From the NCBI RefSeq assembly GCF_026210795.1, contig NC_089444.1:3028501-3092500 (forward strand): a DNA stretch of 64,000 bases, in the 5' to 3' direction. Origin of the DNA: Rhizophagus irregularis. Lineage: Eukaryota; Glomeromycota; Glomeromycetes; Glomerales; Glomeraceae. The position numbers were made by a program, and so were the translations under genes. Shown piece after piece: positions 6,604-58,221 of the stretch (the stretch's first letter is position 1; every line of letters begins with the position of its first letter). The notes below the pieces were generated by a model. The model ran no database searches, was not told the origin of the DNA, and saw only the letters and a program-made list of their open reading frames with translations.

Positions 6604-8122
6604 CTACTGTTCAACTATTTGGAACACTTCACATTCTTCTACAGTAAAATTATTTTCAGTTTTTCTAATTGGTTTTTCATAAGAACCTTTTTCACAGTAA
6701 CAATGACCAAGTTTCCATATAATAAGGTCTCTAGTTCCAAATGATGGACCATACGGATCTCCATTATTTATGGCAAAACTTTTATTCGTTACACGACTTA
6801 AAATGTAATCTTCTATTCTATCATTGTTAAAAGAAAATATAAAACTATCTTTAGTAAAACCCCATATATTACTAGAATACCATTTAATTGGATTATATCC
6901 TCCAAGAATTTCATTGCTATCTTTCACTTTAATAATTGTTACCGTGCGAGGTATACCATCACAAATTTCGTGAAATTTATGTGGTGTAAGTCCATCACGG
7001 GATCCGCGAAACAATAATTTAAATTCATAAGGAGAAGTTAACTTATAGTCAGTAATTTTTAATCTGTCAATCCATTTTGAGATCAATTCGGTATGTTGAG
7101 ATGTAATGATTTTTGAATAAACGGTTTTTAAGTTAGTTACATGAGGTTTTAAATTATTGCTTAGTAGCTTACTATTGGGATCCAAAAGACTTAAAAATGA
7201 TTTTAATAAATTTTTATATAAATCTTTTGGCAGAATTTTCTTATAAGGTAATACTTTATCTGTAAATTCTTTAGAAGTTAAATAGTAGAATTTAATAAAT
7301 GGAATAAATTGTTGTAAAGTACCCTTTAAAACGTTAAAATCGTCTTTTGAATAATTTGTGACATCAGCAGAAAGACCTGGATTTTGTGCAAGTCCCCATT
7401 TAAGAACATGTTCCCAAATTTGAATTTCACTCATTTGAAGATTATCATTTTGAATTATCGAAAGAAAAAGTTTTTCTGGAATTGAAGAAAAATTCAATGA
7501 GTCGAATATCTTAACTGGTTCTTTCGTCATTAAATCAGTACAATATTTTTGAAGTTCGGAGAAAGAATCATTTTCGAAGCTTGTTTGATATATCAAATTA
7601 AAATTTTGTTCACTCCAATTCGCTTTATTTTCGATCAAAAAGGATTGTAAATATGGGATTAATTCTTGAAGACTAAGTTCACTAGCGGCCATTAGGATTT
7701 GAATTATATCTGAATTATCATATTCATTTAAAGAAAGGTTTCCACCATAAATATACCTAAAAAAAAAATAATTATTTATAAAAAAAGAATAATTTTAAAA
7801 ATTATTTTATTTAATTACTATTATTAAAAAGCGTCAATTGTTATTATAAAATTTTTTTTTCTTACCTCAAAATTATTTGAAAAATTTCAGGAGAAATATT
7901 TGGTAATTTAATATGTGTTAAAGTACCATCATTTTTTTTTTTATTAGTTGATAAAATTCTTCGCAAGTAAGGAGAACGATAATATAAAATAACCATATGA
8001 GCACGAAATATTTTTATATAAGGATCATTACCAACTTCAATAGTAATATCATAATATTCTTCATCATTTAATATTTCGGTTAAATTTTGCAATAATTTTG
8101 GTAATAATTTATTATTAGACAT
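6604..8122 (-). CDS. BTB-BACK-TLDc protein, copy 1
   Basis: Two exons, 8122-7866 and 7756-6604, are joined across a GTAAG..TTTAG intron within an AG|G arginine codon and give 469 residues. Residues about 22-120 form a BTB/POZ fold (EEYYDITIEVGNDPYIKIFR; the intron falls after IFQIIL). A BACK-like helical region follows (about 120-230). Residues about 325-467 form a TLDc domain with LLFRGSRDG, ILGGYNPIKW, KDSFIFSF, GPSFG, SYEKPIRK and EECEVFQI. BTB domains dimerise and commonly dock substrates on Cullin-3 ligases. TLDc domains are linked to oxidative-stress protection and V-ATPase binding. The combined role in this fungus is not known. The start ATG is the first in frame and lies 109 bases from a CACGTG motif. 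All reading frames across the splice are open, so I regard it as intact. Confidence 0.9.
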
Positions 8123-9558: not shown

Positions 9559-11081
9559 CTACTGATCAATTATTTGAAAAACTTCACATTCTTCTATAGT
9601 AAATACAATATTAGCTTTTCTAATTTGTTTTTTATAAGATCTTTTTTTACAACGACAATATACGCTAAATAAATCGTATTCTAATATAATAAGGTCTCCA
9701 TCACCAAATGATGGACCGCGAATACTTCCGTTTACAATAGCACAATTTTCATTCATTACACGACTTAAAATGTGGTCTTCAATTCTATCATTATTAAAAG
9801 AAAATATGAAACTATCTTTGGTAATACCCCACACATAATCCGATTCCCATTTAATTGGATTATATCCTCCAAGAATTTCGTTACTATCTATTACTTTAAT
9901 AATTGTTACTGTGCGAGATATACCATCACAAATTTCATAAAATTTATCTCGTGTAAGTCCATCACGGGATCCGCGAAATAATAATTTATATTTATATTAA
10001 GAAGTTAACTTGTCAGTAATTTCTAATCTATTGATCCATTTTGAGATCAATTCAGTATGTTGAGATGTAGTGATTTTTGAATCAATGGTTTTTAAGTTAG
10101 TTAAATGAGGGTTTAAATTATTGTTCAGCTTACTATTAGGTTCTAAAAGACTTAAAAATGATTTTAATAAATCTTTATATAATCCTTTTGGCAAAATTTT
10201 CTTATAAGGTAATACTTTATCTGTAAATTCTTTAGAAGTTAAATTGTAGAATTTAATAAATGGAATGAATTGTTGTAAGGTAATCTTTAAAGCGTTAAAA
10301 TCGTCTTTCGAATAGTTTGTAACATTAGAAGGAAGTTCTGGATGTTGTGCATGTCCCCATTTAAGAATATGTTCCCAAACTTGAATTTCACTCATTTGAA
10401 GATTATCATTTTGAATTATTGTGATTAAAAGTTTTTCTGGAATTGAGGAGAAATTTAATGAGTTAAATATCTTAATTGGCTCTTTTGTCATTAAATCAGT
10501 ACAATATTTTTGAAGTTCATAAAAAGAATCATTTTCAAAGCTTGTTTGATATATCAAATTAAAATTTTGTTTCATCCAATTCGCTTTATTTTCGATCAAA
10601 AAGGATTGTAAATATGGGATTAATTCTTGAAGACTAAGTTCACTAGCGGCAATTAGGATTTGAATTATATCTGAATTATCATATTCATTTAAAGAAAGTT
10701 TTCCACCATAAATATACCTAAAAAAAACAATTATTTATAGAAAAAAAAATTATTTTATTTAATTATTATTAAAATACGTCAACTATTTTTATCATTATAA
10801 AATTTTTTCTTACCTCAAAATTTTTGAAAAATTTCAGGAGAAATATTTGGTAATTTAATATGTGTTAAAGTACCATCATTTTTCTTTTTATTAGTTGATA
10901 AAATTCTTCGCAAGTAAGGAGAACGATAATGTAAAATAACCATACTATGAGCACGAAATATTTTTATATAAGGGTCATTACCAACTTCAATAGTAATATC
11001 ATAATATTCTTCATTACTTTCATTACTTAATATTTCGGTTAAATTTTGTAATAATTTTGGTAATAATTTATTATTAGACAT
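9559..11081 (-). pseudogene. BTB-BACK-TLDc pseudogene, copy 2
   Basis: The layout matches copy 1: exon 1 is 11081-10814 and exon 2 is 10717-9559. Two disabling changes are visible. First, exon 1 lacks one base near 10825 relative to the other copies (aaaatttttg instead of aaaattatttg), so the frame reaches a TGA at 10817-10815, just before the splice donor. Second, exon 2 has an in-frame TAA at 9999-9997 where the other copies encode SPY at the start of the TLDc domain. Exon 1 also has in-frame insertions (SNES near residue 19 and an extra Ser in RAHSMVIL). Downstream TLDc motifs (KDSFIFSF, GPSFG, EECEVFQI) survive. Its proximal 5' region is cut by the adjacent Mutator-like insertion. The inference is that loss of the promoter preceded or accompanied decay. 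Confidence 0.85.
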
Positions 11082-12015: not shown

Positions 12016-14997
12016 CTATACAATTGCAGTTTCTGCATAGTGCATAAAACAAAATTCTGCGCGATCAGTTTCTAATATTTTATCTAAAAACAAACAAATA
12101 TGTAACGATAAATTGAGAAAATTTTTATAATCATAAAGATAAATAATAATAAATAAATGTTATTTTTATACCTTTATTCTGTAATATTTTCAAATAATCA
12201 AGCAACTTTTTTGGTAAAGGATTAGGCAAAGATTGATTGCAAAAAAGACAAAATAATTCATTATCTAGTAATGTATAGTTAATCTTTAATACCTTTTTGA
12301 TATTTAAATTTGAAATATAATAAATAGTGATAAGACTATACCTTTTTTTTTGCTTAAACCATTGTCTATTTCCACTATTTCCATATCCATTAATTCCGTC
12401 ACTGATATTTGTGGTAAATTCTGAAATACCCTATGTATTGAACTAGATGCGTTAATATTATCATTTTTTTTATCATCATATTTGGGAATATTTTCTTTTT
12501 CTTGTAATGACAATCCACTGCTATTATTGGATCTTGTTTTCCGTTTTTTATTTGATAAGTCATTCATTACTTTACTTTTTTTTTCTAATTTAACGTAGTA
12601 AAACTAGTATTAATAATATAATCACATTAATAAAAATTAATTTAAAAAAAAACAATTACAAATACCTCTTTTTTTTGAATTATTAGTAGCAGTCTGGGGA
12701 TTTCTAATTAAATTTTTTGTTGTACTTTTACAAGTTTTTTGATTATTTGCACTTTTTATTCTATTTAATTTTGTAATAAAATATTGTTTGTAGTATAAAA
12801 TTCCTGTGCCATTTCCGGGTACTTTTTTACCAATCCTTTTATTTCATGAAAGACTTTTAATAACAAATATTCATAATCTTCAACACATTCAATAATTTTG
12901 TCATTTGGAGATTGAATATTATTACAAAATAAATGAAAATTTTGCGTTAAAACAAGATTACTTGGATCTTTTCTCCATTGCACTATAAAAAAAGAAAATT
13001 CGGAATTTGCCCTGAAAAGTATGGAAAATGTCCGGAAATTTTCCGTGCGTCCGGAAAACATTCGGAAACGGTCATGTTTTGGAACATTTTCCGGACGCTC
13101 AATTCTGGACAAATTCTGGACAAATTCTGGAGTGTCAAGAAAATGTCTGGAATTTGTGCATCCGGAAAGTGTTCCAAAACGTGACCGTTTCCGAATGTTT
13201 TCCGGACGCACGGAAATTTTCCGGACATTTTCCATACTTTTCAGGACAGATTCCGAATTTTCTTTTTTTATAGGGTTGATTATGAAATAATGATTCTGGA
13301 AGATTATTTAAATTAAGTTGTGTTGCTACACGAATAATATGTCGGCAGATAATTCCTGAGAAGGTAGTGTATTATTTGTTTCACCATTATGTACCACTTT
13401 TCTTCCAGTTTTGGTTTCATGATTAAAACGGTAAATTTGATAAGTTTGCATCGTTTCAGTTCTATTTTTTTTTAAAAAAATCATGCATTTTATAGTATTA
13501 GTACATTGTTACAATAAAAAAAGATATTTATAATATATAACATACCTTGAATCTAATAGTTCAATACATAAATAACTCGTATATTTCTGAGGCCTGATAT
13601 TCAAGTGGACTTAATGTTTTAAAAGCATTTTCATGAATTTGCTTGTATTTAGCTAATTGTAAATCATTTTCACGCTGCTCTAATGCTGATTCAAATGCTT
13701 TTAAAAAATCCAATAATGAATGGGAAGCATCCATATAACCTTTCATTAAATTATTCATAGATTCACCACGCTGTGTACTTGTCATATCTGCTAAAAATGT
13801 ATCTCTTATAAAGCAAGGCGCCCATTTCTCTTTTATTTTATCCATTCTTTCTAAATGTGATTTTGAATCTGGAAAATTTTCTTTAAGTTGCTGCCACTTA
13901 ATTATAAAATTATCAACTTCATATTCTCTTATGCAATCGTAAAATGATTTAGTGAACTCCCGCCATTTTGTTCCTAGAACATTAGCAATATTTTTGATGA
14001 CATTTTTCCAAAGATGCCATATACATAAAACATGTTTAGTATTTTGTCCAAATGTGATCTCTATCGCCTGAGAAATTGCTTTGTCTTCGTCAGTAAGCAT
14101 CACTTTAGGTGAATAATTATTAACAAACTTAAAAAAAGTATTAAATACCCATACAAAACTATCTATTGTTTCTCGACACATTAAAGTTCCAGCAAAGCAT
14201 ACACTTTGACCGAAATTATTTATTCCAGTAAAAATCCCAAATGGCATATTAAACCTATTAACTTTATATGTGTTATCAAAAACAATAGCATCTAAAAATC
14301 TGCTATAATATCGCTTTTGATCAGGATACATCCAAATTACTTGAAGTAATTCATTTGTATTAACATCAACTCTAACTTCGTATTCAAATCCATCAATTTC
14401 TCTTTTAAGTTGTTTTAAGATATTTATAAATTCTTCTGCTTCAAAAAAGCGTTGTTCTTGTTTACCATTTAACTGATATATGAAATTATAAATATCATTA
14501 TAGATCCATGTTTCTAAGTCTTTATATTCTTGCTTAAGAATTGAACGAATAGTTGGTACATTACAGCCTGCTTGATGATAAACTATAATTCGATCTTTAA
14601 TTTCTTGAGGAATTATTCTTTCACTACTAAGAAACATTTTGTGTTCAGGAGCAACCATTTCATGATTATGTTCCAAATTCATGGCTAAAATGTGCCAAAG
14701 TCCACTATTATTATCAAGTAAAGCTCTGATAAAAAATGGACAATTACATCTTTGAGATTTACGATCTCTTGAGTTGACTTTATCCTCTTTACTTTCAGAA
14801 ACACCTGCGCGTGATCATAAGATTGTTTTTCTTATAATATTTTTTTCTTTATCACGACCTACTTTACTCAACCGTATCTGAAAATTGCAATATGACGCGC
14901 AATTTTGAGCTCTTGCTACAAATTCTTCATGATTTTTAAATATATCCGAAATTTTTAATTCAGAAGATTGTTGTGGTTCAGGTTCGGAAGTATTCAT
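12016..14997 (-). pseudogene. FAR1/MULE-type transposase with C-terminal Cys-rich tail, degenerate
   Basis: The gene starts at an ATG at 14997 (MNTSEPEPQQSSELK) and enters a FAR1-type DNA-binding region. An in-frame TGA at 14817-14815 stands where the first zinc-finger Cys would be expected (TIL*SRAG), followed in frame by QRCNCPFFIRALL and MNLEHNHE. The MULE catalytic domain is well preserved at about 14680-13565: DAIVFDNTYKVN (Asp), VMLTDEDKAI (Asp), HVLCIWHLWKN and TSTQRGESMNN (Glu). The frame breaks at 13561. A SWIM-like piece, SGIICRHIIRVATQLNLNNL, lies near 13360-13290. A 291-base MITE then interrupts the gene before QWRKDPSNLVLTQNF (about 12975). Later exons (12975-12666 with a 2-base frameshift, 12584-12342, 12292-12172, 12083-12016) encode a Lys/Asn-rich linker, LFCLFCNQSLPNPLPKKLL and AEFCFMHYAETAIV, then a stop. 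The Cx2C..LP..P and FC..H..AE pattern resembles an RTC4-like tail, which is tentative. Confidence 0.8.
12983..13273. mobile_element. MITE inside transposase gene
   Basis: Near-perfect inverted arms of about 115 bases begin CTATAAAAAAAGAAAATTCG and end in its complement. The arms are rich in TCCGGA/TTTTCCGG repeats. The element splits the transposase frame between the SWIM-like segment and QWRKDPSN. The four mutually overlapping ORFs it contains on both strands (12978-13290) are palindrome shadows, not genes. Confidence 0.8.
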
Positions 14998-16085: not shown

Positions 16086-17593
16086 TTATTGCCCAACTAG
16101 TATTTGAAACACTTCACATTCTTCTATAGCAAAATTATTTTTGGTTTTTCTAATTGGTTTTTCATAGGATCTTTTTTTACAATGACTAGAACCAAAATCC
16201 CATACAATAAGGTCTCCATTACCAAATGATGGACCGTAAGCACTTCCGTTTCTAATAGCGCAATTTTTATTCATTACACGACTTAAAACGTGGTCTTCAA
16301 TTCTATCATTATTAAAAGAAAATATAAAACTAGTATTTTTAGTAACACCCCACACATAACTCGATTCCCATATAATTGGGTTATATCCTCCAAGAATTTC
16401 GTTACTATCTTTCACCTTAATAATTGTTACCGTGCGAGGTATACCATCACAAATTTCATGAAATTTATGTAGTGTAAGTCCATCACGGGATCCACGAAAT
16501 AATAGTTTATACTCATATGAAAAAGTTAACTCGTCAGTAATTTCTAATCTATCAATCCATTTTGAGATCATTTCAACATGTTGTGATGTAATAATTTTTG
16601 AATCAATGGCTTTTAAGTTAGTTAAATGAGGGTTTAAATTATTGTTTAGCTTACTATTAGGTTCTAAAAGACTTAAAAATGATTTTAATAAATCTTTATA
16701 TAATTCTTTTGGCAAAATTTTCTTATAAGGCAATACTTTATCCATAAATTCTTTAGAAGTTAAATTGTAGAATTCAATAAATGGAATAAATTGTTGTAAG
16801 GTGCTCTTTAAAGTGTTAAAATTATCTTTTGAATAGCTTGTGACATTAGAAGGAAGTTCCGGATGTTGTGCATGTCCCCATTTAAGAACATGTTCCCAAA
16901 CCTGAATTTCACTCATTTGAAGATTATCATTCTGAATTATTGTGATCAAAAGTTTTTCTGGAATTGAGGAGAAATTTAACGAGTTGAATATTTTATTTGG
17001 CTCTTTTGTCATTAAATCAGTACAATATTTTTGGAGTTCAGAGAAAAAATCATTTTCAAAGCTTGTTTGATATATCAAATTAAAATTTTGTTCCATCCAA
17101 TTTGCTTTATTTTCGATCAAAAAAGATTGTAAATAGGGGATTAATTCCTGAAGACTAAGTTCATTAGCGGCAATTAGGATTTGAATAATATCTAAATTAT
17201 CATATTCTTTTAAAGAAAGGTTTCCACCATAAATATACCTAAAAAAAATAATTATTTATAGAAAAAAAAATTATTTTATTTAATTATTATTAAAAAGCGT
17301 CAACTATTTTTATCATTATAAAATTTTTTTTCTTACCTCAAAATTATTTGAAAAATTTCAGGAGAAATATTTGGCAATTTAATATGTGCCAAAGTTCCAT
17401 CATTTTTCTTTTTATTAATTGATAAAATTCTTCGCAAGTAAGGAGAACGATAATGTAATATAACCATATGAGCACGAAATATTTTTATATAAGGGTCATT
17501 ACCAACTTCAATAGTAATATCATAATATTCTTCATCATTTAATATTTCGGTTAAATTTTGTAATAATTTTGGTAATAATTTATTATTAGACAT
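16086..17593 (-). CDS. BTB-BACK-TLDc protein, copy 3
   Basis: Exon 1 is 17593-17337 and exon 2 is 17238-16086, and the spliced product is 469 residues. The join is open throughout (IFQIILR | YIYGGNLSLKEYDNLDII). Exon 1 is almost identical to copy 1 (Ile instead of Thr before NKKKND). The linker LEPNSKLNNNLNPHLTNLKAID groups it with copies 2 and 4. TLDc motifs are complete: LLFRGSRDGLTLHKFH, EILGGYNPIIW, FIFSFNNDR, GPSFGNGDLIVW, RSYEKPIRKTK and EECEVFQI, with an unusual ILVGQ ending. The variable loop between GGYNP and FIFSF (ESSYVWGVTKNT) differs from every sister copy. The promoter hexamer is changed to CATGTG (17723-17728), so expression may differ. It appears functional. Confidence 0.9.
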
Positions 17594-21075: not shown

Positions 21076-22593
21076 CTACTGATTAATTATTTGAAAAATT
21101 TCATATTCTTCTACAGTAAACTCATCTTCAGTTTTTCTAATTGGTTTTTCATAGGATCTTTTTCTACAACGACAATATTCGCCCAATAAATCGTATCCTA
21201 ATATAGTAAGGTCACCATCACCAAATATTGGACCGCAATTATCTAAATTATATATGGCTTTACTTCCATTCATTACACGACTTAAGATGTAATCTTCAAT
21301 TATATCATTATTAAATGAAAATATAAAACTATCTTTAGTATAACTCCACACATTATCAGACTTCCATTTAATTGGATTAAATCCTCCGAGAATTTCATTG
21401 CTGCCTTTCACTTTAATAATTGTTATTGTGCGGGATTTGTCATTACAAATTTCGCGAAATTTATGTCGTGTAAATCCATCACGGGATCCGCGAAATAATA
21501 ATTTATATTTATATGGAGAAGTTAACTTGTCAGTAATTTCTAACTTATTAATCCATTTTGAGATCAATTCAGTATGTTGAGATGTTATAATTTTTGAATC
21601 AATAGTTCCTAAGTTAATTTCCTTAGTTATACAAGACTTTAACTTATCACTTGGCTTGATATTAGGATCCGAAAGACTTAGAAATGTTTTTAATAGATTT
21701 ATATGTAATTCTTCAGGTAAAATTTCTCTATAAGGAAATATCTCATCTAAAAATTCTTTAGACGTTAAATTATCGAATTTAATGAATGGAATAAATTGTT
21801 GTAAGGTGCTCTTTAAAGAGTTAAAATCGTCTTTTGAATAGTTTGTGACATTAGAAGGAAGTTCTGGATGTTGTGCATGTCCCCATTTAAGAATATGTTC
21901 CCAAACTTGAATTTCACTCATTTGAAGATTATCATTTTGAATTATTGTGATCAAAAGTTTTTCTGGAATTGAGGAGAAATTTAATGAGTTAAATATCTTA
22001 ATTGGCTCTTTTGTCATTAAATCGGTACAATATTTTTGAAGTTCGGAGAAAGAATCATTTTCAAAGCTTGTTTGATATATCAAATTAAAATTTTGTTCCA
22101 TCCAATTTGCTTTATTATCGATCAAAAATGATTGTAAATAGGGAATTAAATCCTGAAGACTAAGTTCATTAGCGGCAACTAGGATTTGAATTATATCTGA
22201 ATTATCATATTCATTTAAAGAAAGGTTTCCACCATAAATATACCTAAAAAAAAAATAATTATTTATGAAAAAAAAATTTAAAAATTATTAATTGTTTAAA
22301 AAGCGTCAATTATTTATCATAAATTCTTTTTCTTACCTTAAAATTATTTGAAAAATTTCAGGAGAAATATTTGGTAATTTAATATGTACCAAAGTTCCAT
22401 CATTTTTCTTTTTATTAGTTGACAAAATTCTTCGCAAGTAAGGAGAACGATAATGTAATATAACCATATGAGCACGAAATATTTTTATGAATGGGTCATT
22501 ACCAACTTCAATAGTAATATCATAATATTCTTCATCGTTTAATATTTCGATTAAATTTTGTGATAATTTTGGTAATAATTTATTATCAGCCAT
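21076..22593 (-). CDS. BTB-BACK-TLDc protein, copy 5
   Basis: Exons 22593-22337 and 22243-21076 give 474 residues, beginning MADNKLLPKLSQN. The BTB exon matches the array consensus, but the segment after BACK changes to REILPEELHINLLKTFLSLS and SDPNIKPSDK with a KEINLGTID extension. That linker is shared with the two plus-strand copies at 31.3 and 39.8 kb, not with copies 1-4. In the TLDc region LLFRGSRDGFTRHKFREICN, EILGGFNPIKW (Phe for Tyr), KDSFIFSF and KRSYEKPIRKTEDEF are intact. GPSFG is altered to GPIFG, and the end is EEYEIFQI. It is the outermost member of the minus-strand array and looks functional. Confidence 0.88.
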
Positions 22594-27154: not shown

Positions 27155-28525
27155 TTAATAAGATTTCTTGTCATCTTTTTTATTTTTCTTGTAGTAATCA
27201 TCTTTCTTGTGGTAATCATCTTTCTTGTAGTAATCATCTTTCTTGTGGTAATCGTCTTTGTGATCATCTTTTTCGTAGTAGTACTCATTCTTGTAATCAT
27301 CATCCTTGTAGTAATCGTCATTGTAGGAATCATCTGGTGAAGCTAAGGCATTACGTCTGTAGTATTTCTTGTTCTTATCTTCGTAGTCATCTTTCTTGTG
27401 GTAATCGTCTTTGTGGTCATCTTTCTTGTAGTAATCATCTTTCTTATGGTAATCGTCTTTGTGGTCATCTTTTTCGTAGTAGTACTCATTCTTGTAATCA
27501 TCATCCTTGTAGTAATCGTCATTGTAGGAATCATCTGGTGAAGCTAAGGCATTACGTCTGTAGTATTTCTTGTTCTTATCTTCGTAGTCATCTTTCTTGT
27601 AGTAATCATCTTTCTTGTGGTAATCGTCTTTGTGGTCATCTTTCTTGTAGTAATCATCTTTCTTATGGTAATCGTCTTTGTGGTCATCTTTTTCGTAGTA
27701 GTACTCATTCTTGTAATCATCATCCTTGTAGTAATCGTCATTGTAGGAATCATCTGGTGAAGCTAAGGCATTACGTCTGTAGTATTTCTTGTTCTTATCT
27801 TCGTAGTCATCTTTCTTGTGGTAATCGTCTTTGTGGTCATCTTTCTTGTAGTAATCATCTTTCTTATGATAATCGTCTTTGTGGTCATCTTTTTCGTAGT
27901 AGTACTCATTCTTGTAATCATCATCCTTGTAGTAATCGTCATTGTAGGAATCATCTGGTGAAGCTAAGGCATTACGTCTGTAGTATTTCTTGTTCTTATC
28001 TTCGTAGTCATCTTTCTTGTGGTAATCGTCTTTGTGGTCATCTTTCTTGTAGTAATCATCTTTCTTATGATAATCGTCTTTGTGGTCATCTTTTTCGTAG
28101 TAGTACTCATTCTTGTAATCATCATCCTTGTAGTAATCGTCATTGTAGGAATCATCTGGTGAAGCTAAGGCATTACGTCTGTAGTATTTCTTGTCCTTAT
28201 CTTCGTAGTCATCTTTCTTGTGGTAATCGTCTTTGTGGTCATCTTTCTTGTAGTAGTCGTCTTTATCATATTTGTAGTAATAATAATGATCATCTTTGTC
28301 TTCCTTCTTCTTATCATCATAATAATATGAAGAAGGTGACTCGTCACGTTTATTATTTAATTCAATCCCACCATTAGGAGTAGGAGCAGCAGTAACTACA
28401 TATATATAAAATGAAATTAGAAAAAAACATTTTACTTGTATTTTTTATAATCGAGATATATACTCACCATCATTAAGGGTTGAAACTCCCAAAATTGCCA
28501 AACAAATAGCTATTGTTATCTTCAT
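27155..28525 (-). CDS. Secreted repeat protein with dibasic sites, Asp/Tyr/Lys/His-rich
   Basis: Exon 1 (28525-28468) encodes a signal peptide, MKITIAICLAILGVSTLND. A GTGAGT..GTAG intron leads to exon 2 (28395-27155). The product is 432 residues. After the signal comes TAAPTPNGGIELNNKR, with KR as a possible Kex2 site. The body is made of units that start RRNALASPDDSYNDDYYKDD and continue with DDYHKKDD / DDYYKKDD / DDHKDD blocks. The NALASPDD marker recurs five times with spacings of 201, 219, 201 and 201 bases (67 or 73 residues). The units are nearly identical at DNA level. No Cys occurs in the repeats. RR and KK pairs recur in every unit, so processing into peptides (Kex2-processed repeat type) is possible. 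Alternatively the clustered Asp/His/Tyr could bind metal ions or the cell wall. Location is predicted extracellular. The opposite-strand frame of 346 codons is a shadow. Confidence 0.85.
27339..28361. repeat. 201/219-bp coding minisatellite
   Basis: The marker GAAGCTAAGGCATTACG occurs at 27339, 27540, 27759, 27960 and 28161. The unit is 201 bases, with one 219-base unit carrying an extra 18 bases (six residues). All lengths are multiples of three, which keeps several frames open on both strands. Within each unit a shorter TCTTTCTTGTGGTAATCGTC-type motif of about 18-27 bases repeats. Confidence 0.85.
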
Positions 28526-31346: not shown

Positions 31347-32902
31347 ATGGCTGATAATAAATTATTACCAAAATTATTACAAAATTTAACCGAAATATTA
31401 AATGATGAAGAGTATTATGATATTACTATTGAAGTTGGAAATGATCCTTATATAAAAATATTTCGTGCTCATATGGTAATTTTACATTATCGTTCTCCTT
31501 ACTTGCGAAGAATTTTGTCAACCAATAAAAAGAAAAATGATGAAACTTTAACACATATTAAATTACCAAATATTTCTCCTGAAATTTTTCAAATAATTTT
31601 GAGGTAAGAAAAAAAAATTTATAATGATGATAAAAATAGTTGACGCTTTTTAATAATAATTAATTAAATAAAATAATTTTATTATTTATTTTCTATAAAT
31701 AATTATTTTTTTTTTTTAGGTATATTTATGGTGGAAACCTTTCTTTAAATGAATATGATAATTCAGTTATAATTCAAACCCTAATTGCCGCTAATGAACT
31801 TAGTCTTCAGGATTTAATTCCCTATTTACAATCTTTTTTGATCGAAAATAAAGCGAATTGGATGGAACAAAATTTTAATTTGATATATCAAACAAGTTTC
31901 GAAAATGATTCTTTCTCCGAACTTCAAAAATATTGTACTGATTTAATGACGAAAGAACCAGTTAAGATATTCAACTCATTAAATTTTTCCTCAATTCCAG
32001 AAAAACTTTTGATCACAATAATTCAAAATGATAATCTTCAAATGAGTGAAATTCAAGTTTGGGAACATATTCTTAAATGGGGACATGCACAAAATCCGGA
32101 ACTTCCTTCTGATATTACAAATTATTCAAAAGATGATTTTAACACTTTAAAGAGTACTTTACAACAATTTATTCCATTTATTAAATTCTACAATTTGACC
32201 AATAAAGAATTTACGGATAAAGTATTACCTTATAGAGAAATCTTATCTGAAGAATTATTTATAAATTTATTAAAAACATTTTTAAGTCTTTCGGATCCTA
32301 ATATCAAGCCAAGTGATAATTTAAAACCTTGTATAACTAAGAAAGTTAATTTAAAAGCCATTGATTCAAAAATTATTACATCACAACATGTTGAAATGAT
32401 CTCAAAATGGATTGATAGATTAGAAATTACTGACAAGTTAACTTCTTCATATGAGTATAAACTATTATTTCGTGGATCCCGTGATGGATTTTCACTAAAT
32501 AAATTTCACGAAATTTGCGACGACAAAACTTCCACAGTAACACTCGTTAAAGTGAAAAGCGGCAATGAGATTCTTGGAGGATATAATCCAATTAAATGGA
32601 AGTCTGATGATGTGTGGTGTATTACTAAAGATAGTTTTATATTTTCTTTTAATACTGATAGAATTGAAGATTACATTTTAAGTCGTGTAAAGAATAAAAA
32701 TTACGCCATTAATAACGGACCAAATCGCGGTCCATCATTTGGTGGCGGCGACCTTACTATATGGAAAACTGCTATATGGAAATCTACTCAAATGTTGGAT
32801 TATTGTTATAGTAAAAAAAATTTTTATGAAAAACCAATTAGAAAAACTGAAAATGAATTTAAAGTAGAAGAATGTGAAGTTTTTCAAATAATTAATCAAT
32901 AG
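31347..32902 (+). CDS. BTB-BACK-TLDc protein, copy 6
   Basis: Exons 31347-31603 and 31720-32902 give 479 residues (MADNKLLPKLLQN). It is in inverted orientation to the main array, yet its 3' flank (about 32990-33130) is the complement of the array 3' block, so the whole unit was inverted and moved. The linker SDPNIKPSDNLKPCITKKVN places it with copies 5 and 7. TLDc motifs are LLFRGSRDGFSLNKFHEICD, GNEILGGYNPIKWKSDD, FIFSF, GPSFGGGDLTIWK and EECEVFQI. A six-residue insertion that repeats IWK (IWKTAIWKSTQ) follows GGDLT and lengthens the surface loop. The BTB exon is the array consensus apart from DETLTH. No defects are seen. Confidence 0.9.
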
Positions 32903-39839: not shown

Positions 39840-41366
39840 ATGGCCGATAATAAATTATTACCAAAATTATCACAAAATATACTCGAAATTTTAAATGATG
39901 AAGAATATTATGATATTACTATTGAAGTTGGTAATGACCCTTATATAAAAATATTTCGGGCTCACATGGTTATTTTACATTATCGTTCTCCTTACTTGCG
40001 AAGAATTTTATCAACTAATAATAAAAAAAAAAATAATGATATTTTGACACATATTAAATTACCAAATATTTCTCCTGAAATTTTTCAAATAATTTTGAGG
40101 TAAGAAGAAAAAATTATAATGATAAATAATTGACGCTTTTTTAATATAAATTATTAAATAAATAATTTTTTATATAAATAATTATTTTTTAGGTATATTT
40201 ATGGCGGAAAGCTTTCTTTAAATGAATATGATAATTCAGATATAATTCAAATCCTAATTGCCGCTAATGAACTTGGTTTTCAGGAATTAATTCCCTATTT
40301 ACAATCTTTTTTGATTAAAAATGAAGCAAGCTGGATGGAACAAAATTTTAATTTGATATATCAAACAAGCTTCAAAAATGATTCTTTTTCCGAGCTTCAA
40401 AAATATTGTACTGATTTAATAACAAAAGAACCAGTTAAGATATTTAACTCATTAAATTTCTCCTCAATTCCAGAAAAACTTTTGATCACAATAATCCAAA
40501 ATGATGATCTTCAAATGAGTGTAATTCAGATTTGGGAACACGTTCTTAAGTGGGGACTTGCACGACATCCAGAACTTCCTACTAATGTTACAAACTATTC
40601 AAAAGACGATTTTAATGCTTTAAAGAGCACCTTGCAACAATTTATTTCATTCATTAAATTCGACAGCTTGACTTCTAAAGAATTTTTGGATAAAGTATTT
40701 CCTTATAGAGAAATTCTACCTGAAGAATTATGTATAAATTTATTAAAAACATTTCTAAGTCTTTCAGATCCTAATATCAAGCCAAGTGATAAGTCAAAGC
40801 CTTGTATAACTAAGGAAGTTAACTTAGGAACTATTGATTCAAAAATTATTACATCTCAACATACTGAATTGATCTCAAAATGGATTAATAAGTTAGAAAT
40901 TACTGACGAGTTAACTCTTCCATATGAATATAAATTATTGTTTCGCGGATCCCGTGATGGATTTACACAAAATAAATTTCACGAAATTTGTGACAACAAA
41001 TTTCGCACAGTAACAATTGTTAAGGTGAAAGAAAGCAACGAAATTCTTGGAGGATATAATCCATTTGTATGGAAATCTGTTAGTGGGTGGGTTATTACTA
41101 AAGATAGTTTTATATTTTCATTTAATAATGATAGAATTGAAGATCACGTTTTAAGTCGTGTGACGAATGAACGTAAAGCTCTAAAAAATTCATCTATAAG
41201 AGGCCCGTCATTTGGTGATGGCGACCTTACTATATGGAAATTAGATAGTTCGGCAGGATATGATTATTGTCGTAGTAAAAAAAGATATTATGAGAAACCA
41301 ATTAGAAAAACTGATAACGAGTTTTTCGTAGAAGAATGGGAAGTGTTTCAAATAATTGAGCAATAA
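39840..41366 (+). CDS. BTB-BACK-TLDc protein, copy 7
   Basis: Exons 39840-40099 and 40193-41366 give 477 residues. The BTB exon has one extra residue in the Lys-rich loop (STNNKKKNND) compared with the consensus STNKKKND. The BACK region reads AANELGFQELIPYLQSF, and the linker SDPNIKPSDKSKPCITKEVN is closest to copies 5 and 6. TLDc motifs are LLFRGSRDGFTQNKFHEICD, ESNEILGGYNPFVWKSV, ITKDSFIFSF, RGPSFGDGDLTIW, RYYEKPIRKTDNEF and EEWEVFQIIEQ. The loop after GDLTIWK is again expanded (LDSSAGYDYC). All frames are open and the promoter block is complete. Confidence 0.9.
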
Positions 41367-42464: not shown

Positions 42465-45400
42465 ATGATGTTTTCCAAAAAAAATTCTTTAGAGATATCT
42501 AACATTCAAAAATATTTAGAAAAAAATCAAATATGTTGGACTAGTGGAAATGATAAAATTGATAATTTTGTCAAGGAAATGCAATCAAAAATCTATAATA
42601 AAGATTACGGATACAAAGTAGTATTTGAATGGATACTATATAATCAGTTTAGTGAGATCAAAGAAACAGAAAAAAATGATCTTATAACAGTATATTCAGC
42701 AATATGGAAGGATGGTCTTATATGCAAGCTTGCTGGATTAAGTGGTAATTTTGATTTTGTTGCCAATTATAAAAGAGATTCAAATAAAAAAGTTACTTTA
42801 AAATGTTTACATAATTCACAAGAATCTATTGATTCTTTAATAAATGAGGTATGAAATTTACTTAAATATTTAAATACTTTCTTTAATTAATAAATTTACT
42901 ATCTCTTTTATTTATATTTAGGCTAAAAAATATTCAACAAAACATGTAACACTTCAAGTATTGTATGGAATATCTCAAAATCCAGATACAGGAGATTATA
43001 TTTTGGTTCAAAATAATTATACATGGATTAGTGAAAATGGAAAAATTGACAATTTCATTCAGGAAAGGCAATTAAAATTTAATAAGTATGGTGATATAGT
43101 GCTTGAATGGATACCATACAACCAGTTTAAGGAAATCAAAGATACAGGCAAAAATGGCCTTATAACATTTTATTCAGCAATATGGATAGATGGTCCAATG
43201 CGACAATGTAGTTATACAAGAGATTCAAATAATAAAAAGGTCGCTTTAAAGTGCTTACATAACACACAAGAATCCATTGATTATTTAGTAAATGAGGTAT
43301 GTAATTTCTTCAAATATTTAAATGCATTAATCAATATATTTATATTTACAATTTCTTTTATTTATATTTAGGCTAAAAAATATCCATCAAAATATGAAGC
43401 ATTTCAAGCATTGTATGGAATATCTCAAAATCCTGTTACAGGAGATTATATTTTAGTTCAAAATAATTCTATAATCTTGGCAAATTATATCAGTAAAAAT
43501 AAAAAAATTGATGATTTCATTCAAGAAATGCAATTAAAAATGAATTACTATAGTGCTATTGTATTTGAATGGATACCATACAATCAACTTGATGAAATTA
43601 AAGAAATAGTCAAAAATAGTTCTATAACAGTGTATTCAGCAATATGGAAGGATGGTCCATTGTATTGTGATAAACAACCATATTATGGTAAAAATTATAG
43701 TAATTACACAAGAAATTCAAATAAAAAAGTTGCTTTAAAATACTATAACTCACAAAATTCTGTTGACTTTCTAATAAATAAGGTATAACATTTATAAATA
43801 TTCTTAACATCTATTAATATAATAAGTATATTCATTACTTTGTTTTATAATTAGGCTGAAAAATATTTAACAAAACCAGTCATGTATAATAGAGAAATTT
43901 GTAGTATACATGGAATATCTCAAAATCCAAAAACAAATAATTATATTTTAGTTCTTGCATGGACAAGTGGTAATGAAAAAATTGATGACTTTATTATTCA
44001 GAAAATGCAATTAATAAACAGCAATGATTATGGTTATATAATGCTTGAATGGATACCATACAATCAGTTTAATGAAATAAAAGAAACAGACAAAAATGGC
44101 CCTATAACAGTATATTCAGCAATATGGAAAGATGGTCCATTAGATTTCAATACTTGGGGTCATGAATACGTAAGTTCAAGATTTTCAAATAGAAAAGTTG
44201 CTTTAAAATGTTTACATGACTCTCAAAATTCTGCTGACTTTCTAATAAGTGAGGTATAACATTTTTATCAAAATATCTTAATACTATTAATAGTATATTT
44301 ATCACTTTATTTTATATTTTAGGCTGAAAAATATTTAACAAATATGTTTGACAGAGTATTTTGTAATATATATGGAATATCTCAAGATCCAAATACAAAC
44401 AATTATATTTTAGTTCTGGAATGGTCAAGTGGAAATTAAAAAATTGATATTTGCATTCGGGAATTGCAATTAAAAATTAATAACAAAAATGATATAATAT
44501 TTGAATGGATACCCTACAATCTATTTGATGAAATTAAAGTAATTTTGAAAAATAATTCCATTACAATATATTCAGCAGTATGGAAAGATGATACATTACG
44601 TTATGATAATTTTTGTAGTAAATATACAAGAAACTCCACATTTGCTTTAAAACTTTTACATGGTTCACAAGATCTCATTGATTTTCTAATAAATGAGGTA
44701 TAAAATTTTAATTGCCATTCTTTTTTTATAAAATATACTTATTCATATCATTATAACTTAGGTAAAAAAATATTCGACAAGTAAATTTTGTAAGGAGTTT
44801 CTTAAAATACATGGGATATCTCAAGATCCAGATACAAATGATTATATTTTGGTTCAAGAAAATTTTACTTGGGTAAGTGGAAATGAAAAAATAGATGATT
44901 TCGTTCAAGAAATGCAATTGAAAATAAATAACCATGAGGATGTAGTATTTGAATGGATACCATATGATCAATTTGATGATATTAAAGAAACAAGCAAAAA
45001 TAACCTTGTGACAGTATACTCAGCAGTATGGAAGGATGGTCCAACAAAATGCTCAAAATACTATGGTTGTCACATTGATAATATTGGTAATATTAATTGT
45101 CGATATTCTAGTAGATATTCATATGAAAGAGTTGCTTTAAAATGTTTACATAATTCAGAAAATTCTATTGATTTCCTAATAAATGAGGTATAAAATTTCT
45201 TATAAATATTTGTACTACATTTTAATAATATATAAATGTATTAATTTTTTCTATTATTTATTAGGCTAAAAAATATTCAACAAAATATGGGCCATCCCCT
45301 ATATTGTATGGAATATCTCAAAATCCAAATACGAATGATTATATTTTGGTTCAAAATGATTTAATGAACTTAGTAAATTGTTTGAGTGGAAATGAAATAG

Positions 45401-46595
45401 TTGATGATTTTATTCAAGAAATGCAATTAAAAATAAATGACTATAATGATATATTGTTTGAATGGATACCATACAATCAGTTTAATAATATTAAGGAAAT
45501 AGGTAAAGGTGGATTTACTACAGTATATTCAGCAAAATGGAAAGATGGTCTATTAGAATATGATAAAGTTAAAGAAATATATGAAAGGAATCCAGATAGA
45601 GTAATTGCCCTAAAATGTTTACATAATTCACAGAATATTAGTAATGAATTCTTAAATAAGGTATAAAATTTTTTAAAAATCATTTTTAATTATTTTTTAT
45701 ACGAAAGAAATAATAATATATTTAAATTATTTTTGATATCAATGTATTTTAATAGGTTAAAGAGTACTCAATAAATAGGAGTAGTAATATTCTTAATATA
45801 TATGGAATATCTCAAAATCCGGATACAAAAGAATATATTATAGTTCTCAAATATGCTAAAAAGGGAAATCTTAATGATTGGATAAATAAGAATTATGAAT
45901 ATTTTGATTGGCAAGCTAAATTATCTGTATTGGATAATATCATTTGTGGTCTTAAAGAAATTCATCGGAAAAATATGGTTCATCATGATTTTCACACAGG
46001 AAATATATTATTTTTAAGTAATATAAAAGATTTTAATATGAATTATATATCAATTTCGGACACAGGATTATATGGAGAAGTTGGTAATAAAGATGAAATG
46101 AATATTTATGGAGTTATGCCCTATGTGGCTCCTGAAGTATTAAAAGGAAAGCTTTATACTCAAGCAGCAGATATCTATAGCTTTGGAATGATAATGTATT
46201 TTGTAGCAACTGGACAACAGCCTTTTTACAATTGTGCACATGACCACCATCTAACATTAGATATTTGTAAAGGAATTAGACCTGAAATATATGAACCAGA
46301 AGCACCAAGCTGTTATATTAATTTAATGAAAAAGTGTTGGGATTCAGACCCAAACAATAGACCAAATATTTTTGAAGTAAATGATTTAATCACATCGTTT
46401 TATAAGTCATCTGGAGTGGATTTCTACATTGTTGAGAATGAAGAAATTGAAATGCAATTCAAAAAAGCAGAAGAATATAGAAAAGCCAATTTTTCATCTA
46501 TTAAAAATTACCAAGCAGCTATTCATTCACAGGCTATTTATACATCTCGTTTACTTAATCCTTTTACAAAAGATCTTAATAATCTAATCAAGTGA
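42465..46595 (+). CDS. Kinase-like protein with seven tandem N-lobe exons and one C-lobe
   Basis: Eight phase-0 exons: 42465-42848, 42922-43296, 43372-43782, 43855-44253, 44323-44697, 44762-45187, 45265-45660, 45756-46595. Introns are 64-95 bases. Exon 1 carries WTSGNDKIDNF..FEWILYNQF, a Gly-loop region and VTLKCLHNSQ. Exons 2-7 each carry the hinge-side strands of the preceding lobe (YGISQNPxTxDYILV) and then a new N-lobe with FEWIPY, VYSAxWKDG and the beta3 Lys (ALK). Only exon 7 keeps a Gly-rich loop (IGKGGFTTVYSAKW); exons 1-6 have KNxxIT in its place. Exon 8 holds the single C-lobe: MVHHDFHTGN (HRD is HHD, with catalytic Asp and Asn present), SDTGLYG (DFG is DTG), PYVAPEV and a C-terminal helix. 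Exon 5 has an in-frame TAA at 44437-44439. If all exons join, translation stops there; skipping exon 5 gives 1076 residues. Whether a true upstream exon exists is uncertain. Confidence 0.8.
44323..44697 (+). pseudogene. N-lobe exon 5 with in-frame stop
   Basis: This exon unit is full length (125 codons), with normal acceptor (TTTTAG|GCT) and donor (GAG|GTATAA) sites. A GAA-to-TAA change at 44437-44439 (SGN*KID against SGNEKID in sisters) stops the frame. Its loop is also the most diverged (ILKNNSITIYSAVW, FALKLL). It is either a dead exon that must be skipped or a sign that the gene no longer produces the full protein. Confidence 0.75.
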
Positions 46596-52159: not shown

Positions 52160-53654
52160 TCAATGACTATCAATTTGAAATACTTCACATTCTTCTACAT
52201 CAAACTTACTTTCAGTTTTTCTAATCGATTTTTCATAAGAGAATTTTTTGCAATAATTAATATTGAATATGTTCCACATAATAAGATCATTTTCACCAAA
52301 TGATGGACCATAAGCAGACCAATTATACATAGCACATTTTTCATCCACTACACGGCTTAAAATATAATTTTCAATTCTATCATTGGTAAAAGAAAATATA
52401 AAACTATCTTTAGTAGTTCCATATTTTCCATCAGATCCCCATTCAATTGGATTATAACCTCCAAGAATTTCGGTATTATCTTTCACTTTAATAATTGTAA
52501 CTGTACGAGATTTATTATCACAAATTTCGTGAAATTTATCTCGTGAATGTCCGTCACGAGATGCGCGAAATAATAATTTAAATTCATACGAAGAAGCCAA
52601 CTTGTCCGTGATTTCTAATCTATCGATCCATTTTGAGATTAATTCAGCATGTTGAGATGTAATGATTTTTGAATCAACAGTTTTTAATCCAATTTCTTTA
52701 GTTATTTGAGATCTTGATTTGTCGATTGGCTTACTATCAGGATTTAAAAGAGTTAAAAAAGCTTTTAATAAATCCGTACATAATTCTTCAGGTAAAATTT
52801 CTTTATAAGGAAATACTTTGTCAACAAATTCTTTAGAAGTTAAATTGTAAAAATTAATAAAAGGAATATATTGTTGTAAGGTATTCTTTAAAGTATTAAA
52901 ATCATCTTTTAAAAAATTTGTGATATCAGAAGGAAGTTCAGGATTTTGAGCAAGTCCCCATTTAAGTACGTTTTCCCAAATTTGAATTTCACTTATTTGA
53001 AGATTATCATTTTGAATAATTGAAATCAAAAGTTTTTCTGGAATTGAAGAGAAATTTAATGAATTGAAAATCTTAATTGGCTCTTTAGATATTAAATTAA
53101 TACAATATTTTTGAAGTTCTGAGAATGAATCATTTTCAAAACTTGTTTGATAAACGAAATTAAAATTATTTTCCATCCAGTTTTCTTTATTTTCGATCAA
53201 AAAAAATTGTAAATATAAAACTAATTCCTGAAGACTAAGTTCATTAGCGGCAACTAAAACCTTAATTATATCCGAATTATCATAATCATTCAAAGAAAGT
53301 TTTCCACCATAAATATACCTAAAATAAAAAAATATATATATACATTATTAATAAAATCAATAAAATAGAATAACCTAAATATCATTTGTTTTACCTTAAA
53401 ATTATTTGAAAAATTTCAGGTGAAATATTTGATAATTTGATATGTGCCAAAGTTCCATCATTTTTCTTTTTATTAGTTGACAAAATTCTTCGCAAGTAAG
53501 AAGAACGATAATGTAAAATAACCATGTGAGCACGGAAAACTTTTACGTAAGGGTCATTACCAACTTCAATAGTAATATCATAATATTCTTCATCATTTAA
53601 TATTTCAAGTAAATTTTGTGATAATTTTGGTAAAAGTTTATTATCCTCCTCCAT
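52160..53654 (-). CDS. BTB-BACK-TLDc protein, copy 8
   Basis: Exons 53654-53395 and 53318-52160 give 472 residues starting MEEDNKLLPKLSQNLLEIL. Together with copy 9 it forms a distinct subgroup: TLDc opens LLFRASRDGHSRDKFHEICD (Ala for Gly), the exon 2 start is KVLVAANELSLQELVLYLQF, and the Arg/Ser-rich linker KPIDKSRSQITKEIGLKTVD replaces the array type. Other motifs are TEILGGYNPIEW, KDSFIFSF, YGPSFGENDLIMW, SYEKSIRKTESKF and EECEVFQI. The intron differs in sequence from the array genes but sits at the same codon. The promoter keeps a TATATAAGG-like box (ACATATATAAGGCC) but I find no CACGTG nearby. It is intact. Confidence 0.9.
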
Positions 53655-56692: not shown

Positions 56693-58221
56693 ATGGATGA
56701 TAATAAACTTTTACCAAAATTATCACAAAATTTACTTGAAATTTTAAATGATGAAGAATATTATGATATTACTATTGAAGTTGGTAATGACCCTTATGTA
56801 AAGTTCTTTCGTGCTCACATGGTTATTTTACATTATCGTTCCCCTTACTTGCGAAGAATTTTGTCAACTAATAAAAAGAAAAATGATGGAACTTTGGTAC
56901 ATATTAAATTGCCAAATATTTCTCCTGAAATTTTTCAAATAATTTTAAGGTAATTAATTTTTAAAGACGATTAAATAAATTTTATTTTAATAATATTTTA
57001 ATTTAAGAATATTTTCTTTACTTCAGGTATATATACGGTGGAAAACTTTCTTTGAACGAATATGATACTTTAGACCTAATTAAAGTTTTAGTTGCTGCTA
57101 ACGAACTTAATCTTCAAGAATTAATCACATATTTACAATTTTATTTGATTAAAAATAAAACAAACTGGATGGAACAAAATTTTAATTTGATATATCAAAC
57201 AAGCTATGAGAATGATTCTTTCTTGGAACTTCAAAAATATTGTACTGATTTAATTTCTAAAGGACCAGATAAGATATTTAATTCTTTAAATTTTTCTTCA
57301 ATCCCAGAAAAACTTTTAGTTACAATTATTCAAAGTGATAATCGTCAAATGAGTGAAATTCAAATTTGGGAATATGTTCTTAAATGGGGTCTTGCTCAAA
57401 ATCCCAACCTTCCCTCTGACCTTACAAACTTTTCAAAAGATGATTTCAAAAGCTTAAAGAATACTTTACAAGGATGTATTCAAATTATTAAATTTTATAA
57501 TTTAACTTCTAAAGAATTTTTAGAAAAAGTGTTACCTTATGAAAAAATATTTCCCAAAAATTTATATAAAGATTTATTAAAAGCTTTTTTAAGTCTTTCA
57601 GATCCTAATAGCAAACCAGTTGATAAATCGGAATATACTTTTTCAAGTCTTCCAGTTCTTGATGATGAATCGGAACATATTTTAGGTCTTTCGGAATATG
57701 AAAATATGAGAACTATTGATTCAAAAATTATAACTTATCAACATATTGAATTAATCTCAAAATGGATCGATAGATTAGAAATCACGGACAAGTTGGCTTC
57801 TTCGTATAAATTTAAATTATTATTTCGCGCATCTCGTGACGGACATTCACGAGGTAAATTTCACGAAATTTGCGATAATAAACCACGCACAGTAACATGT
57901 GTTAAAGTGAAAGACAGTAACGAAATTCTTGGAGGGTATAATCCAAATGTATGGAAATCAGACATCAGTAACGGCGCTAATAAAGATAATTTTATATTTT
58001 CTTTTAGCAATAATAAAATTGATAATTATATTTTAAGTCGTGTAACGAATGGGAATTATGCTACAATAAATAATCCTAGTTATGGTCCATCATTTGGTGG
58101 AAGTGATCTTATTATATGGGGTTGTATAGGTTGTTATAGTGCAAAAAGACATTATGAAAAATCGATTAGAACTGAAAATGTCTTTGGTGTAGAAGAATGT
58201 GAAGTGTTTCAAATTGCGTAG
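56693..58221 (+). CDS. BTB-BACK-TLDc protein, copy 9
   Basis: Exons 56693-56949 and 57027-58221 give 483 residues, the longest copy. The BTB exon starts MDDNKLLPKLSQNLLEIL and has KFFRAH where others have KIFRAH. The BACK to TLDc linker holds a unique insertion of about 25 residues (SSLPVLDDESEHILGLSEYE). TLDc opens LLFRASRDGHSRGKFHEICD as in copy 8, then NEILGGYNPNVWKSD, KDNFIFSFSNNKIDNY, YGPSFGGSDLIIWG, HYEKSIRTENVF and EECEVFQIA. It sits on the opposite strand to copy 8, about 3 kb away, so the pair looks like an inverted duplication with the Cys-rich exons between. It is intact. Confidence 0.9.

Follow-up and report, generated by a model that had tools for sequence, protein, structure and literature searches.

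Kinases of the Roco4, MLK and RIPK1 type carry one N-terminal lobe (N-lobe) per kinase domain and no repeat array, and the N-lobe is familiar as one half of an enzyme rather than as a repeated module. Here we analyse a stretch of 64,000 nucleotides of the Rhizophagus irregularis genome (contig NC_089444.1, positions 3,028,501 to 3,092,500; hereafter the window), in which a gene at 42465-46595 of the forward strand encodes seven N-lobes and a single C-terminal lobe (C-lobe). Two kinds of described systems come closest to it. In the tandem kinase-pseudokinases of plants (TKPs, e.g. WTK1/Yr15), as in the animal JAKs, a kinase stands beside degenerate kinase domains, and in the TKP pseudokinases the catalytic loop and the Gly-rich loop are the least conserved parts (PMC6170490). 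Certain fungal NLRs show high internal conservation, with WD, ANK or TPR repeats of >85% identity (PMC4986451). R. irregularis itself has an expanded kinase repertoire of 2,533 members (PMC10234402). The three articles are cited here from partial texts.

Exon anatomy of the window gene

The gene consists of eight exons (E1-E8), whose lengths are all multiples of 3. They are separated by seven GT-AG introns of 64-95 nt, phase 0 throughout. E1 opens with ATG, E8 closes with a stop codon, and E2-E7 are flanked by AG and GT. Each of E1-E7 encodes one N-lobe. An internal exon begins with the hinge strands that finish the previous lobe, continues with a pre-kinase linker, and then runs through the next lobe to end at the helix C Glu/Lys. 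The features are as follows.

42465..42848, forward strand: E1, start codon, short N-terminus, linker and N-lobe 1, without hinge strands
42922..43296, forward strand: E2, hinge strands of lobe 1, linker and N-lobe 2 (KN-type loop)
43372..43782, forward strand: E3, hinge strands of lobe 2, linker and N-lobe 3 (KN-type loop)
43855..44253, forward strand: E4, hinge strands of lobe 3, linker and N-lobe 4 (KN-type loop)
44323..44697, forward strand: E5, hinge strands of lobe 4, linker and N-lobe 5 (KN-type loop), with an in-frame stop
44437..44439, forward strand: in-frame TAA within E5
44762..45187, forward strand: E6, hinge strands of lobe 5, linker and N-lobe 6 (KN-type loop)
45265..45660, forward strand: E7, hinge strands of lobe 6, linker and the last N-lobe with the glycine loop GKGGF, final residue Lys
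45756..46595, forward strand: E8, hinge strands of lobe 7, the single C-lobe (PK_Tyr_Ser-Thr, 6.6e-33) with HHD, DTG and APE, and the stop codon

E8 is identified as a C-lobe by Pfam. It matches PF07714 (PK_Tyr_Ser-Thr) from profile position 59 with 114.5 bits against a cut-off of 23.1, and the match covers the hinge strands and the C-lobe. Its best match among PDB sequences is the Roco4 kinase 4f0f (3.9e-19). HHD and DTG stand where kinases commonly have HRD and DFG. E7 alone reaches 0.053 against PK_Tyr_Ser-Thr; E1-E4 and the part of E5 behind the stop have no Pfam match, and E6 has a single unrelated one, under its cut-off. When lobes of the wider family (see below) are joined to their hinge strands as the inferred splicing would join them, all 8 of the last lobes given match PF07714 (best 1.8e-10), and 1 of the 13 inner lobes given does so, weakly (0.17). 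The profile of the last lobes matches PDB sequences weakly (5.3e-4), and that of the inner lobes finds nothing significant among them (best E 0.5, mostly kinases). Inner and last lobes align with each other by hhalign over 101 columns with 54% identity (probability 100, E 2.7e-51). Judged by this profile-profile match, the inner units are homologous to kinase N-lobes.

The KN-type loop is found in E1-E6, so that GKGGF is confined to E7, and all seven window lobes keep the beta3 Lys. Among last lobes of the family with a letter at the site, the beta3 Lys is present in 25 of 25 and the helix-C Glu in 22 of 24. The window copy has Lys for this Glu at the end of E7, a change common to its nearest paralog, L001; the position was located by aligning the last-lobe profile with 4csv. 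E3 also finishes in Lys, where the family majority has Glu. The inner lobes presumably cannot bind ATP in the normal way.

Two simpler accounts of the array were rejected. The repeated stretches of the gene have 61-89% DNA identity (scored only at >=60%) and are thus too diverged for assembly stutter, and L001, elsewhere on the contig, has seven lobe exons in the same order. A row of separate genes does not fit either, as in the window no C-lobe lies between the units and the inner exons have in-phase splice signals on both sides. For the 32-chromosome assembly of R. irregularis DAOM197198, uniform read coverage was reported and the repeats were concluded to be resolved (PMC10234402, in the part cited).

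The original prediction, made from the window alone, was right in the layout of seven N-lobes and one C-lobe, its coordinates and the beta3 Lys kept in each lobe. An assembly artefact at this locus, which it had named as a refutation, does not fit the divergence of the repeats and the exon order of L001. Its amplification of an exon, lobe count and Gly-loop rule stand. The intactness of the gene does not, since the TAA within E5 was overlooked. This stop has no counterpart in L001, and the eight-exon message is therefore not open as it stands. The window copy may skip E5, end truncated there, be a pseudo-active member or decay. The window gene displays the anatomy, yet an open long array is the better object of study.

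The array family in the genome

The genome searched comprises 146,748,485 bases on 32 contigs. With E6 as a query, 148 of the 150 best matches listed span the query from <=15 to >=140, and thus include the hybrid junction. Three unit queries give at least 280 distinct unit exons in 61 clusters among the matches listed, of which 48 show two or more units and 41 lie on contig C16; one array may fall into two clusters, as L019+L020 does. We fetched 31 array loci and scanned them with a profile built from five window units. Together with the window, these 32 loci hold 385 unit hits, 6 to 36 per locus. In this count a split unit scores two hits, the fetched stretch truncates some loci, and a neighbouring kinase supplies one hit in L035. 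Of the 32 loci, 28 have a C-lobe adjoining their last unit; within the fetched stretch there is none adjoining it in L004, L012, L013 and L023. In L010 and L033 the C-lobe matches as two overlapping pieces and may be broken. The longest array, L021+L022, has 36 N-lobe hits followed by one C-lobe; the largest gene would have up to about 35 N-lobe copies ahead of the single working half.

The borders of the units are exact. All 249 whole-model hits are immediately preceded by AG and immediately followed by GT, and the hinge motif is present in 304 of 314 full units. It is absent from the first exons, for which an ATG lies upstream in frame, in 24 of the 25 loci that could be judged. These 24 include the neighbouring kinase of L035, L032 is a partial case, and seven other loci are truncated at the stretch edge. 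The duplication along exon borders seen in one gene by the original prediction is therefore borne out across a multigene family, which is invisible from the window alone.

The Gly-rich loop follows position in the array. The glycine pair is present in 29 of 29 lobes that adjoin a C-lobe (one of them the neighbouring kinase in L035) and in 2 of 342 others (371 readable loops, Fisher 4e-41). The two exceptions, unit 13 of L004 and unit 13 of L013, end their arrays and either lack a C-lobe or lie far from it. Of 336 non-last lobes with a letter at the site, 316 retain the beta3 Lys. Seven loci intended as a contrast of ordinary kinases (L036-L042) proved unsuitable, as six of them contain additional N-lobe units, complete or nearly so, and L041 has a partial unit; they were used as a second test of the loop instead. 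Four more kinases with good Pfam C-lobe matches were examined; L043-L045 have extra N-lobes and L046 alone looks single. In this second sample of 16 loci (L036-L051), picked by C-lobe or unit matches and not by the loop, and with units dropped if their loop columns consisted mostly of gaps, the pair is present in 13 of 14 last lobes and in 0 of 38 others. For L047 and L048, where the fetched sequence contains no C-lobe, all units were counted as non-last. With few exceptions, the restriction of the Gly-rich loop to the lobe next to the C-lobe thus holds in the sampled loci as in the window. A one-query count of the fraction of kinases with arrays, to be read as a lower bound only, shows that at least 24 of 104 matches have a unit upstream at a distance of more than 1150 bp, and that at least 30 of 104 have any unit within 6 kb.

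The reading frames of the repeat lobes are conserved. In 146 near-full-length inner units, drift would be expected to produce about 252 nonsense changes (single-step changes, with the spectrum from an intron divergence of 0.085 by the Jukes-Cantor model, over 73 reciprocal nearest pairs), and we find 2 stops. This argues strongly that the frames are kept much better than drift predicts. In L047 a single open frame of 334 codons contains two units and lacks an intron where one usually lies, and so neighbouring units are read together there. L048 also has two units in one frame, of 314 codons, perhaps with an intron remnant.

The lobes of the array diverge at different rates, as measured by nonsynonymous (dN) and synonymous (dS) divergence from pairwise counting. 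The protein identity of E1-E7 to their counterparts in L001 is 71, 76, 82, 84, 79, 82 and 93%, each the best of its row. Between the two genes, the C-lobe (E8) has a dN of 0.030 and a dN/dS of 0.19, E7 a dN of 0.035 and a dN/dS of 0.66, and E1-E6 a dN of 0.088-0.184. The dN/dS is 0.49-0.80 for E1, E2, E4 and E6, and 0.73 for E1-E7 pooled. In this one gene pair, protein change is thus about 2.5-6 times faster in the repeat lobes than in the last lobe and C-lobe. Over 73 pairs of inner units the overall dN/dS is 0.61; the beta2-beta3 loop has 1.04 and the other parts 0.38-0.64, with 0.38 between beta3 and helix C. We do not claim positive selection from these pairwise counts.

The last lobes have an ancestry of their own. 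In a tree of 327 units, from which the Gly-loop and beta2-beta3 columns were removed, 24 of 26 last lobes group without any inner lobe (support 99). The label last or inner changes 2 times on the tree and the locus 125 times, and for 200 of 294 inner units the nearest relative is found in their own locus. On these grounds, most last lobes form an old separate lineage, and amplification continues among the inner exons. Higher-order repeats are seen in two loci. In L007+L008 the unit pairs 4/13 and 8/17, with matching loop motifs, are spaced by nine units (about 4.3 kb), and in units 9-12 of L013+L014 a unit pair recurs with a spacing of about 1.1 kb. Unequal exchange of blocks of several exons would produce such patterns.

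The linkers of many sister arrays contain a CxxC...CxxC element, and for that reason we think that the window type has probably lost it. Separately, a last-lobe exon with a long Asp-rich low-complexity insert ahead of the hinge strands is seen in L049 (1302-2096, forward strand) and in L051 (reverse strand, 290-1036 from the far end).

Possible role of the repeat lobes

We favour, as probable, an explanation in which one polypeptide carries a string of non-catalytic N-lobes that serve a single kinase as modules for interaction or recognition.

Step 1: The hybrid exon, with the end of one N-lobe, the linker and the start of the next lobe, would be amplified, most likely by unequal exchange. Since all exons are phase 0, their copy number could change by exchange or exon skipping without a break of the frame.

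Step 2: The exons would be spliced in series to give the string of N-lobes, with strands 4-5 of each lobe coming from the next exon. The chain would end in one complete kinase, composed of the last N-lobe and the C-lobe.

Step 3: The repeat lobes, without normal ATP binding, would act as interaction or recognition modules, and their putative variable surface is perhaps the beta2-beta3 loop. The string would recruit partners or sense a ligand and in this way steer the single kinase, which is the output. Protein-interaction modules, as proposed in the original prediction, would fit the kept frames, the fast protein change and the lost ATP loop.

Several observations weigh against this explanation. 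Apart from the E5 stop itself, 6 of 319 exons with both splice signals contain a stop in the wider family sample, the last lobe of L033 has one further stop, and 9 further units, outside the set of 146, are each split into two hits in different frames. The dN/dS of E3 (1.17) and of the stopped E5 (1.45) exceeds that of the other exons in the comparison with L001, and the repeat values of 0.61-0.73 also fit relaxed constraint. The value for the beta2-beta3 loop depends on an uncertain alignment and may be caused by misalignment; it is 1.62 in the last lobes (only 6 pairs), so that a variable loop is not special to the repeats. One last lobe of the second sample, in L040, is without the glycine pair. 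Structure prediction of the repeat unit, named in the original prediction as a check, was made for one unit, and the AlphaFold model of E6 with 7 window sequences is poor (mean predicted local distance difference test score, pLDDT, 52.8).

The alternative that survives best, and that can hold beside the preferred explanation, concerns the window copy only: it is quite plausibly, although we would not assert it, a dying pseudogene within a real family. The E5 stop absent from L001 and the dN/dS of that exon point this way, as do the Lys that replaces the helix-C Glu in E7, though L001 shares it, and DTG in the window copy as against DMG in relatives such as L049-L051. However, the remaining seven exons are all open, the C-lobe has a dN/dS of 0.19 relative to L001, skipping of E5 would leave the frame intact, and the TAA may be a base error of the assembly.

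We find it unlikely that the array is an alternative-splicing cassette, where a message takes up few inner exons and the array is a repertoire of variants, not one long protein. Phase 0 at both exon ends and the exact in-frame splice signals would allow any subset of exons to keep the frame, and skipping would tolerate the E5 stop. Against this, the two units in the single frame of L047 are read together, and a KN-type lobe fused directly to the C-lobe would yield a kinase without a Gly loop.

It is somewhat more doubtful still that the inner lobes act as decoys, docking on the common C-lobe and keeping the kinase off until a signal pulls the array apart and the last lobe engages. Their identity to the last lobes, the kept beta3 Lys and the lost Gly loop are what such a decoy would show. 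However, strands 4-5 of an inner lobe sit on the next exon, and the decoy would have to leave them; the predicted structure of the unit is poor. Finally, non-functional amplification, in which the inner exons arose as a side effect of unequal exchange and are drifting, so that function is limited to E7 and E8 or is absent altogether, would account for the stops, the split units and the repeat dN/dS, but is very improbable in view of the roughly 252 stops expected against 2 seen, the exact splice signals of the 249 complete units and the Gly-loop rule in the sampled loci.

If the preferred explanation of a non-catalytic N-lobe string is true, it shows how a catalytic half-domain becomes a modular repeat, with the ATP loop dropped from nearly all copies but the last. 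It would also explain part of the huge kinase expansion in arbuscular mycorrhizal fungi. As Pfam hardly sees the inner lobes, annotations may list such genes as ordinary kinases with unannotated N-termini. By extrapolation from the matches listed, R. irregularis probably encodes hundreds of array kinases. More tentatively, we suggest that these, with up to about 35 variable-loop non-catalytic N-lobes each, form a copy-number-variable recognition system, for self and non-self or for plant and symbiont. We know of no allorecognition receptors described for this fungal lineage, and to our knowledge the discrimination of self from other strains and the response to the host are an open question in these fungi.

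Neighbouring features and known systems

Eight similar open frames, seemingly of one BACK/TLDc family, lie on both strands around the kinase gene.

6604-7794, reverse strand: BACK/TLDc-like frame, by eye
9997-10734, reverse strand: BACK/TLDc-like frame, by eye
16086-17255, reverse strand: BACK/TLDc-like frame, by eye
21076-22284, reverse strand: BACK/TLDc-like frame, by eye
31703-32902, forward strand: BACK/TLDc-like frame, by eye
40182-41366, forward strand: BACK/TLDc frame (PF07534 TLD 1.4e-20, BACK 8.7e-05)
52160-53344, reverse strand: BACK/TLDc-like frame, by eye
57007-58221, forward strand: BACK/TLDc-like frame, by eye

An open frame at 13561-14814 of the reverse strand resembles, by eye, a Mutator-like element transposase. 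At 27155-28444, also on the reverse strand, a 429-codon open frame holds about five near-identical repeats of 67 amino acids (a 201-bp tandem repeat with 95% matches), rich in Asp, Tyr and Lys and with a recurring KKYYRRNALASPDDSYN stretch. Its sequence suggests a secreted precursor made of repeats and processed at dibasic sites.

Returning to the kinase arrays, no description of them was found among the titles and abstract openings listed from the open-licence literature (lists of 6-20 papers), which leaves their absence from print not shown. The family presumably belongs to the kinase expansion of R. irregularis; the part of PMC10234402 cited gives kinase counts, with no mention there of N-lobe arrays or their exon structure. 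The C-lobe is similar by sequence to those of Roco4, MLK and RIPK1, tyrosine-kinase-like and related kinases, and the last lobes match PF07714.

With the TKPs and JAKs the arrays share a kinase beside degenerate kinase domains. However, in those proteins a whole kinase is joined to a whole pseudokinase (PMC6170490, in the part cited), whereas here the N-lobe alone is repeated, on phase-0 exons, with a single C-lobe. Instead of two complete kinase domains the window has one C-lobe, and each array in the other 31 loci has none or one in the fetched stretch, except in L035, where the second belongs to the neighbouring gene. With the fungal NLRs of high internal conservation the arrays share tandem repeats, change of length, fast positions and the joining to other domains (PMC4986451, in the part cited). 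Unlike the repeats of these NLRs, the N-lobes are less alike, lie on separate exons and have a kinase as output. Compared with repeats of >85% identity over 100 amino acids, the window units have 42-60% protein identity to the first row of their alignments. Some pairs in other loci are closer, with a within-locus DNA identity of 0.849 on average and reciprocal pairs up to 1.0. The array kinases would thus join the ideas of the TKP/JAK proteins and of the fungal NLR repeats with a half-domain as the unit, while belonging strictly to neither group.

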